Shown here piece after piece: positions 17,414 to 26,813 of a stretch of 64,000 bases of DNA. Made by a program: the position numbers and the translations under genes. The notes under the pieces were generated by a model that worked only from the letters and a program-made list of their open reading frames with translations, ran no database searches and was not told the DNA's origin. Every line of letters starts with the position of its first letter. Position 1 is the stretch's first letter. The stretch is from contig NZ_LGKG01000035.1 in the NCBI RefSeq assembly GCF_001294335.1, positions 62,001 through 126,000 on the forward strand, given 5' to 3'. This DNA is from Streptomyces chattanoogensis. Lineage in GTDB: Bacteria; Actinomycetota; Actinomycetes; Streptomycetales; Streptomycetaceae.

Positions 17414-18886
<1,473 letters not shown>

Positions 18887-18892
<6 letters not shown>

Positions 18893-24830: not shown

Positions 24831-24861
24831 TTGACCTTCAGGTTGGTTGAAGCCCGACAAT
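24831..24861 (+). promoter_or_regulatory. MerR-type promoter with 19-bp spacer
   Basis: -35 TTGACC (24831-24836), spacer of exactly 19 bp, -10 GACAAT (24856-24861). The spacer holds the dyad CTTCA-N7-TGAAG. Long spacers with an internal dyad are the hallmark of MerR-controlled promoters. The -10 ends 7 nt before the ATG of the MerR gene, predicting a leaderless mRNA. Confidence 0.75.
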
Positions 24862-24868
24862 CCCGCTC

Positions 24869-26098
24869 ATGGACGAGGAAGAGCTGTTGGGCATCGGCGC
24901 GTTCGCGCGACGGGTGGGGCTGGCGCCGAGCGCGTTGCGTTTCTACGACGACTGCGGGGTGCTGCGGCCGGCCCTGGTGGATGAGGCGACGGGGTACCGG
25001 TACTACGGCGCGGGGCAGGCGCCCCGCGGAGTGCGGTTGCGACGCCTGCGGGCTGCGGGGTTGCCGTTGGTGGATGTTGCGGTGGTGCTGGACGGTCCGG
25101 AGGAAGCGGCGCGGGGCGTGCTGCGCGCGTATCTGGAGCGGACACGGCGTACGGCGGACGAGGCGCAGGCCGTGGTGGAGGGCTTTCTGCGGGAGGTGTC
25201 GGGGGACCCGGGCGGCCGAGGGGTGCGGGCCCGGGTCGACGGTGCCGAGCTCGCCGGTGCGGTACGGCAGGTGATGTCCGCTGCGGCAGTGGGTGCGGAG
25301 CGCGAGGAATTTCCGGTGTTGGGGTGTGTGCTGCTGGAACTCATCGACGGCGAGGTGCGGTTGGTGGCCACGGACCGCTATCGGCTGGCCGTAAGGGTGC
25401 TGCGGGCCACGGACTTCGAGGGCGGGCCGCGCAAGGCGCTGATCGAGGCGCAGGCAGCACAGGACCTGGCGGAGTGGGCCGTACGGCAGATGGCGGTCGA
25501 GGTGGAGTGCGGTGGCGTGGTGGGGGACACCGCGGATTCGACGTATGCGGGAGGTACGACGGATGCGGCAGGGTTTCGGCTTCGGGGAGCCGGTGGAGGC
25601 GAGCGCTGGGAGCCACCGCAGGAGAAGGGCCGTCGTCAGAAGTGGGAGCAGGGCAGGCACCCGGGCCCGGCTCCCGAGGAGTTCCCGGACTACCGGCTGA
25701 TCCTGGAGGGGCTTGAGGCAGGGAGAGACCGGATCATCGCCGACCGGAACGGGCTGCGGGACGCGGTCGCCGGGCGGGGCGGTGTGGTGTCGCTCGTCAT
25801 GAGCGCGGGGCAGGACGGCGAGCCTGAGCTCGAGGTGACGGGTGGGGAGCGGGAGCCCGTGCGGCTGCGAGCGGTGTTTCACGTGAAACATGGGACGGTT
25901 CCACGGATCGCCTTTGATCCGGCGGTCCTTGTGCCCGCGCTGGAGGCCGGGGTGGGGCCCGATGCGCTGCTGGAGATTGCCTCGGCGGACCGGCCCGTTG
26001 TGGTCCGGTCCGCTGACCAGGGAAGTTTTACGACGCTGGCGATGCCGGTGAGCGAGCGGTCCGGTGCCCGTACGCCTGCGGGTCGTGCCGATGGCTGA
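24869..26098 (+). CDS. MerR regulator fused to DNA polymerase III beta-clamp domains
   Basis: 409 aa. Residues 5-75 are a MerR winged helix (LGIGAFARRVGLAPSALRFY, then TGYRYYG). A helical linker (76-118) follows. From 120 the sequence reads like actinobacterial DnaN domain 2: DGAELAGAVRQVM, EEFPVLGCVLLEL and the signature VATDRYRLAVR (166-176). EFPDYRLIL (272-280) and the C-terminal IAFDPAVLVPALEAG...SFTTLAMPV (347-394) match clamp domain 3. Clamp domain 1 is absent; the MerR head takes its place. A perfect parS lies in the frame (codes VFHVKH, about residues 336-341). A MerR-type promoter sits directly upstream. The ligand and targets are unknown. Confidence 0.85.
   Translation: MDEEELLGIGAFARRVGLAPSALRFYDDCGVLRPALVDEATGYRYYGAGQAPRGVRLRRLRAAGLPLVDVAVVLDGPEEAARGVLRAYLERTRRTADEAQAVVEGFLREVSGDPGGRGVRARVDGAELAGAVRQVMSAAAVGAEREEFPVLGCVLLELIDGEVRLVATDRYRLAVRVLRATDFEGGPRKALIEAQAAQDLAEWAVRQMAVEVECGGVVGDTADSTYAGGTTDAAGFRLRGAGGGERWEPPQEKGRRQKWEQGRHPGPAPEEFPDYRLILEGLEAGRDRIIADRNGLRDAVAGRGGVVSLVMSAGQDGEPELEVTGGEREPVRLRAVFHVKHGTVPRIAFDPAVLVPALEAGVGPDALLEIASADRPVVVRSADQGSFTTLAMPVSERSGARTPAGRADG
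25876..25889. other. parS: parS site 7 (inside the MerR-clamp gene)
   Basis: Perfect GTTTCACGTGAAAC in the clamp-domain-3 coding region, read in the frame that gives FHVKH. Confidence 0.95.
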
Positions 26099-26114: not shown

Positions 26115-26813
26115 ATGGATCCGGAGCTGCCGGTGGTGCGGCTGTGTGTGGCGGGGATGCAGGCGGAGGCGGAGGGGCGGTCCGACGCCGCGTACGAACT
26201 CTTTCAGCAGGCCTGGGACGCGGCCGGAGACGACTACGAGGCGTGTATCGCAGCGCACTACCTCGCGCGCCACCAGACCTCGCCCGAGGAGACGCTCCGT
26301 TGGAACCAGGAGTGTCTGGACCGGGCCGACCGCGTGGCGGACGACCGGGTGCGGGGGTTCTATCCCTCGCTGTACCTGAATATGGGCCAGGCGTACCGGC
26401 AGTTGGGGCAACCGACCGTGGCGTACGGGTATTTCGTACGGGCCGCCGAGCGGGTGGATGAGCTGCCCGAGGGGCAGTACGGCGACTGGAACCGGTTCGC
26501 CATCGCGGAGGGACTGCGTGAGACGGCGTCGGAGGCATCGGCTGCCGGGACGGAAGGCGACGCCCCACCGGTGCGGCGGGTCCTCGATGAGGGCGTCGAT
26601 GCGCGTATCCGCGAACTGCTGTCGCGATGGTGTGCACGCGCCGATCTGACAGCGCTGGGACTGACGCTTCCGGCCTATCTCGGTTACCTGGGGACGGACG
26701 GGGACCGGCTGCGGCTGCGGTCCGCGCTGCATATGGTGCACGCGGCGCGTCGGCTGCCGCAGGACGAGCAGACGGCGCTCGGTGCGGTGATCGGGGCCGC
26801 CGCACTGGGGTGA
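26115..26813 (+). CDS. Tetratricopeptide-like helical protein
   Basis: 232 aa. Two or three helical repeats resembling TPR (GRSDAAYELFQQAWDAAGDDY, then YLNMGQAYRQLGQPTVAYGYF), then an uncharacterised C-terminal half. The ATG at 26115 has a G-rich RBS; an ATG at 26091 would overlap the MerR-clamp stop by 8 bp. Either way the gene is tightly linked and probably co-transcribed with MerR-clamp. It may be a protein-interaction partner (inference). Confidence 0.75.
   Translation: MDPELPVVRLCVAGMQAEAEGRSDAAYELFQQAWDAAGDDYEACIAAHYLARHQTSPEETLRWNQECLDRADRVADDRVRGFYPSLYLNMGQAYRQLGQPTVAYGYFVRAAERVDELPEGQYGDWNRFAIAEGLRETASEASAAGTEGDAPPVRRVLDEGVDARIRELLSRWCARADLTALGLTLPAYLGYLGTDGDRLRLRSALHMVHAARRLPQDEQTALGAVIGAAALG

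Follow-up and report, generated by a model that had tools for sequence, protein, structure and literature searches.

Why would a bacterial transcriptional regulator carry part of a DNA sliding clamp? The question is raised by an open reading frame (ORF) in a 64,000-nucleotide stretch of the Streptomyces chattanoogensis genome (contig NZ_LGKG01000035.1, positions 62,001 to 126,000; hereafter the window), which joins a MerR-type DNA-binding head to sequence resembling domains 2 and 3 of the clamp, DnaN. The fusion ORF is confirmed as real. On the evidence of sequence and a structural model, it encodes a MerR head, a long helix and clamp domains 2 and 3, with a conserved cleft and a lost ring interface, and its gene lies behind a promoter with a 19-bp spacer and ahead of a gene for a TPR protein. 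For a self-inducing MerR protein with much of the cleft kept and no ring expected, the simplest role is that of a sensor for cleft ligands, and we give an even chance to the proposal that this one responds to a ligand and activates its own expression, its sensor being a remnant of the sliding clamp.

Domain architecture and the clamp-derived part

Two Pfam models, both above their curated cut-offs, match the N-terminus, namely MerR (PF00376; residues 9-46, E 1.5e-8) and MerR_1 (PF13411; residues 9-75, E 1.6e-7), and the AlphaFold2 model (pLDDT 85, pTM 0.63) likewise displays a winged helix, followed by the long helix typical of the MerR family, at residues 78-111, to which dimerization is ascribed by analogy. 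Further downstream, DNA_pol3_beta_2 is matched at residues 125-200 (E 4.1e-6; 27.5 bits, cut-off 27), and a profile of 74 family members finds in the PDB both MerR proteins and bacterial clamps, the latter over domains 2 and 3 (best 8dj6, 4.6e-17). Structure comparison with VIA-align, in which the matches listed were all clamps and none informed on the MerR head, aligned clamps with the model over residues 118-396. Accordingly, the check set out in the initial annotation, by structure prediction and profile comparison, found the clamp fold. That annotation had also described a winged helix followed by clamp domains 2 and 3, with domain 1 missing, and this description holds: the three domains per protomer of a clamp are absent, and by Pfam and the model the position of domain 1 is taken by the MerR head and its helix. 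The motif VATDRYRLAVR was correctly read at residues 166-176 and LAMPV lies near the C-terminus (390-394), while EFPDYRLIL is present one residue away from where it had been placed, at 271-279 instead of 272-280. In a single pairwise comparison, with S. natalensis, dN/dS was ~0.17 for the MerR part of the window's gene and 0.38 for the clamp part, values that point to purifying selection on both.

What the clamp part has kept was assessed in 128 distinct family members, which profile scores assigned to subgroups A (92, with the window's protein among them), B (21) and C (15), and which were compared with 18 actinobacterial DnaN sequences, a divergent clamp (L211) and that of E. coli being excluded from the DnaN consensus. 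The lists of cleft, interface and DNA-side positions follow work on E. coli and are partly confirmed by the available portions of published papers. In columns where 80% or more of the DnaN sequences agree, the share of cells with the consensus residue is 0.72 (A), 0.73 (B) and 0.90 (C) at the 13 cleft positions, against 0.32, 0.31 and 0.33, respectively, in the 96 other columns (permutation p of 0.0003 in A, 0.0003 in B and 0/10,000 in C). In the window's protein the kept core comprises threonine 168, R-Y-R-L at 170-173, proline 273, methionine 392 and proline 393, and most residues of cleft subsite 1 are those of actinobacterial DnaN. The partner-binding cleft proposed in the initial annotation is largely present in sequence, most subsite-1 residues being kept, but the residues of subsite 2 are changed in subgroup A; in subgroup C the subsite-2 positions are kept. 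Ten dimer-interface positions of domain 3 match DnaN in 0.01-0.04 of cells, a low share due largely to alignment gaps at these positions, and the clamp part is predicted to be incapable of forming a ring. DNA-side positions match in 0.25 (A), 0.16 (B) and 0.29 (C) of cells, much as do the remaining columns (0.21-0.23), and consequently seem neither specially kept nor specially lost.

Promoter, family distribution and partner gene

The fusion gene is preceded by a -35 element, TTGACC (24831-24836), and, after a 19-bp spacer, by a -10 element, GACAAT (24856-24861; xAnnnT), which ends 7 nt before the ATG; the fusion mRNA is probably leaderless. Known regulators of the MerR type bind palindromes within promoter spacers of 19 or 20 bp, according to the accessible part of PMC1526738, and a 19-bp-spacer promoter with an operator lies upstream of nearly all members of each subgroup (Table 1). 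In the organism's own 9.1-Mb genome one operator site was found at up to two mismatches, which is the fusion's own promoter, and three further operator-like places appeared when three mismatches were allowed. A larger regulon was rejected after these scans, own promoter being the sole site at up to two mismatches. With a slightly looser pattern applied to 199 genomes of the genus, 21 of the 22 zero-mismatch sites among the matches listed stand directly upstream of a fusion gene, and the simplest reading of these sequences is that the regulator's main target is its own operon. The remaining exact site, in genome G138, precedes a frame in which a MerR head is joined to TPR with no clamp between them (L217, G138:C9:101500-104500, frame 177-884).

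A search of 5.8 billion proteins, with 7994 candidates scored, yielded 1225 relatives at E <=0.001, and those named among the 120 listed are mostly from Streptomyces, with other actinobacteria besides. Automated pipelines have catalogued the family, as had been suspected: among the matches listed, 'MerR family transcriptional regulator' is the usual name, with 'DNA polymerase III subunit beta family protein' given to some. A member is present in 81 of 199 genomes of the window's genus (E <=1e-20) and in 33 of 394 genomes of the class, distributed over 15 of 137 genera (E <=1e-30). In a draw from the phylum, 11 of 296 genomes matched, 9 of them in the same class; outside the class, L227 was discarded, since by eye it resembles an ordinary DnaN with dnaA- and recF-like frames next to it, and the second match is a candidate in G738. 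In an unrooted tree of 74 rows, A and C are each set apart from the other rows by a branch (support 83/75 and 98/92), B requires two changes owing to the long-branch row L174, and C lies nearer to DnaN than A and B do; these sequences fit one fusion event as well as two. One genome of the window's genus with a subgroup C fusion also carries the divergent second full-length clamp mentioned above (L211; G449:C1:3580891-3581220).

Subgroup C shows a further feature, an in-frame ATG or GTG with a Shine-Dalgarno-like sequence in the linker, just before clamp domain 2, in 13 of its 15 genes, where 0.015 per linker would be expected from the rate elsewhere in the same genes; ten of the 15 come from the window's genus and are hence not independent. 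The sequences around this internal start differ between families. The start looks maintained, and it is predicted to yield the clamp part alone.

The gene that follows the fusion, in the same direction, encodes a TPR protein of ~230 residues. An alternative in-frame ATG at 26091 would make it overlap the fusion, and its closest homologue, P0123 (232 aa), agrees with the start given in Table 1. Its model is an all-helical superhelix (pLDDT 94.6); the best PDB matches are TPR domains, none below E 0.001, Pfam TPR models match weakly and under their cut-offs, and a database search gave 807 relatives. A profile of this protein is matched directly downstream of the fusion in 63 of 80 named loci (the best 80 of 256) and, within the 128-member set, where flanks are ~1.5 kb in many loci, after the fusion in 72/92 A, 16/21 B and 0/15 C; these counts of fusion plus TPR were made by profile searches, not by gene calls. 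At one locus (L165, G351, frame 964-2595) the MerR, clamp and TPR parts stand in a single reading frame, which is either a true fusion or a sequencing error.

Table 1. Features of the fusion locus, in window coordinates
Feature	Position	Strand	Remarks and basis
MerR-type promoter/operator	24831..24861	+	Pattern found in 89/92 A, 20/21 B, 14/15 C
MerR-clamp fusion gene	24869..26098	+	409 aa, ATG start; ORF and translation, Pfam, AlphaFold2 model
MerR winged-helix head, residues 1-75	24869..25093	+	Pfam, AlphaFold2 model
Long helix, residues 78-111 (MerR dimerization helix by analogy)	25100..25201	+	AlphaFold2 model
Clamp domain 2, residues ~118-262	25220..25654	+	Pfam, profile search, structure match
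Cleft segment T168-D-R-Y-R-L173	25370..25387	+	Aligned with E. coli T172-L177
Clamp domain 3, residues ~287-394	25727..26050	+	Profile search, structure match; PF02768 precomputed for relatives P0105, P0110
14-mer GTTTCACGTGAAAC inside fusion gene	25876-25889		Exact match
Cleft C-terminal segment M392-P-V-S395	26042..26053	+	Aligned with E. coli M362-P-M-R365, with Ser in place of R365
TPR protein gene	26115..26813	+	Starts 16 bp past fusion stop; second gene of presumed operon

Beyond the TPR gene, candidates for conserved neighbors were rejected: the dnaB/ssb/rplI neighborhood, named by eye and seen in ~20/80 loci, reflects position, a serine-hydrolase-like gene occurs in just 20/80, and other families are found in at most 21/80 loci each. 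Four subgroup C loci read by eye displayed no common neighbor. The 14-mer inside the fusion gene, which we take to be a parS as the initial annotation did, is one of 15 exact copies in the window (1297-57553), several in close pairs or triplets, where 0.09 matches would be expected even with up to two mismatches. In the fusion's own frame it encodes FHVKH, which forms an insertion in a loop of domain 3 and is missing from most of the relatives aligned, and the exact 14-mer stands in the reading frame of 9/128 members, all of subgroup A.

Candidate mechanism and alternative explanations

In the mechanism we favor, the fusion protein would occupy its own promoter, and a cleft ligand, which may be a natural product of the griselimycin or mycoplanecin type, a clamp-binding peptide or a toxin, would lodge between domains 2 and 3. 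The ligand-induced change would be relayed through the coiled coil to activate the promoter, so that the operon would turn itself on, and the induced clamp mimic and TPR protein would capture the ligand, leaving the real clamp unharmed. In subgroup C, in which no TPR gene was found, the internal start would also release a free clamp fragment as a stand-alone trap. We hypothesize, tentatively and as something possible rather than probable, that the system works as an inducible decoy for a drug target that is itself essential: a ring-less clamp fragment would act as both sensor and sponge for clamp-binding antibiotics or peptides, switching its own operon, with a free decoy from the internal start in one subgroup and a TPR partner added in others, once fused in frame.

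Several observations weigh against this interpretation. Subsite 2 has drifted in subgroups A and B, with Asn320 replaced by Asp/Glu and Tyr/Phe323 by Val/Thr (in subgroup A, N320 by Asp and Y323 by Val), and Arg365 is kept in 0.50 of A, being Ser in the window's protein, and is not the commonest residue in B; due to these changes a griselimycin-type ligand may not fit subgroup A. The linker of the window's gene holds no internal start, and one was found in 1/92 A genes, fewer than the 0.10 per linker expected, and in 2/21 B genes, where 0.027 per linker is expected; given the drifted subsite 2 and the missing start, both ligand and output may differ in the window's subgroup. The operator is an imperfect palindrome in many subgroup A members, including the window's, where 10/18 positions of the spacer repeat are paired. 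With a looser operator pattern, a second site at two mismatches appears in the own genome, and matches at up to two mismatches occur in 152/199 genomes of the genus, yet the fusion in 81, so that weaker targets are possible. Many of these matches resemble chance or coding sequence. Seventeen of the 80 named loci showed no TPR gene (L091 being too short to judge), and since no other neighbor family exceeds 21/80, no resistance genes point to a ligand. Ligand binding and the trap role are candidate functions.

A different function was suggested in the initial annotation, namely that the cleft binds the clamp-interaction motifs of host polymerases or repair proteins, so that transcription would track the state of the replisome. 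The subsite-1 residues are compatible with such partners, and genomic position initially appears to agree: dnaB, named by eye from its translation, lies ~6 kb upstream of the fusion (17414-18889), within the few kilobases that had been claimed, dnaN is ~45 kb away on the same contig, and near relatives (G036, G064, G094 and G090, the last with a partial fusion match) have the fusion 42-45 kb from dnaN and near dnaB, ssb and rplI. However, in a survey of 23 genomes, usable where both genes lie on one contig, the distance is 217 kb in G067, ~1 Mb in G088, G096 and G180, and >3 Mb in G049, G109, G449 and G566 (in G137 it would be 42 kb if the record were rotated). Among the genomes surveyed the link by position thus holds in the near clade only, and origin proximity is not a family trait. 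The survey of conservation and position that had been called for therefore supports an origin-proximal location in the near clade, against a patchy occurrence in the genus and the class, the gene being absent from most genomes searched at the E-value limits applied. As the sole operator at up to two mismatches is the fusion's own, no replication gene is a visible target, and with this weak support we regard a replication-state sensor as unlikely.

It might also be argued that the clamp fold is a scaffold only, in which domains 2 and 3 were recruited for another ligand and the cleft is conserved for folding. The drift of subsite 2 in A and B would suit this explanation, as would another MerR head of the same genome, joined to an unrelated PP2C-type phosphatase domain (L002, G000:C134:9077-12340, frame 1351-2556), but among columns with equal conservation in DnaN those of the cleft are kept far better than the rest, despite the loss of the interface, which leaves it improbable in our estimation. 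The same cleft logic would serve a sensor and trap directed at clamp-binding phage proteins or toxins instead of small antibiotics; the structure matches include a Gp168-clamp complex (7evp), Gp168 being a phage inhibitor, and the patchy distribution is compatible with a role in defense. Nevertheless, PADLOC models were convincing for neither protein, since the fusion's one match was short and MerR-like (E 0.0068) and the TPR protein had none at E <=0.01, phage and defense neighbors not having been searched systematically. A defense system was accordingly rejected as an assignment, and we consider this explanation very unlikely.

Should the cleft indeed sense ligands, the promoter would be a ready-made reporter with which to find clamp-targeting antibiotics, the system would exemplify resistance through mimicry of the target, and a large gene family, partly labelled as a DNA polymerase subunit by pipelines, would gain a testable function.

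Comparison with known systems

The regulator type is already known, and the sliding-clamp sensor domain appears to be new. A literature search, with most subscription journals outside its coverage, found among the matches listed no functional description of a MerR-clamp fusion, in agreement with the initial annotation, and nothing on a transcription factor that uses a sliding-clamp domain as its sensor; apparent mentions of such a fusion in the available parts of PMC7762955 and PMC6344877 stood in unrelated places.

The closest parallels are TipAL/TipAS and AlbA. In the accessible portions of PMC6078987 and PMC7762955, tipA is described as giving two in-frame products, the regulator TipAL and the drug-binding TipAS, and as being expressed more strongly when drug is bound, and these systems, like the fusion, combine a MerR head with a C-terminal binding domain and an operator promoter before their own gene. 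The predicted targeting of its own promoter is thus a TipA-type feature of the fusion, and in subgroup C another is the internal start, from which the binding domain is predicted to be made by itself. The fusion differs in that its binding domain is a sliding-clamp fragment and not a TipAS fold, in that a drug ligand is known for TipA and AlbA only, and in that a TPR partner accompanies most members of the window's subgroup; a TipA-type second product was set aside for the window's own gene, as it has no internal start. With regulators of the BmrR, MerR and SoxR type the fusion shares the winged helix, the coiled coil and an operator within a promoter spacer of 19-20 bp (available text of PMC1526738), and differs in its effector domain and in having, under the stricter pattern, no second operator at up to two mismatches.

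DnaN has a pocket of two subsites to which griselimycins and mycoplanecins bind, and a second dnaN in their producers has been proposed to confer self-resistance, according to the available part of PMC10817943; the identity of this pocket with the groove between domains 2 and 3 in which partner proteins bind agrees with what is accessible of PMC3335792. Like GriR and MypR, the fusion is an extra clamp sequence beside the housekeeping dnaN that may protect against clamp-binding antibiotics, but those are DnaN genes located in biosynthetic clusters (PMC10817943, same portion), whereas here a two-domain fragment is carried by a regulator. With DnaN itself the fusion shares the fold of domains 2 and 3 and most of the subsite-1 cleft residues; it differs in the absence of domain 1, in deleted or changed interface positions of domain 3, in an unremarkable DNA side and in the added DNA-binding head.
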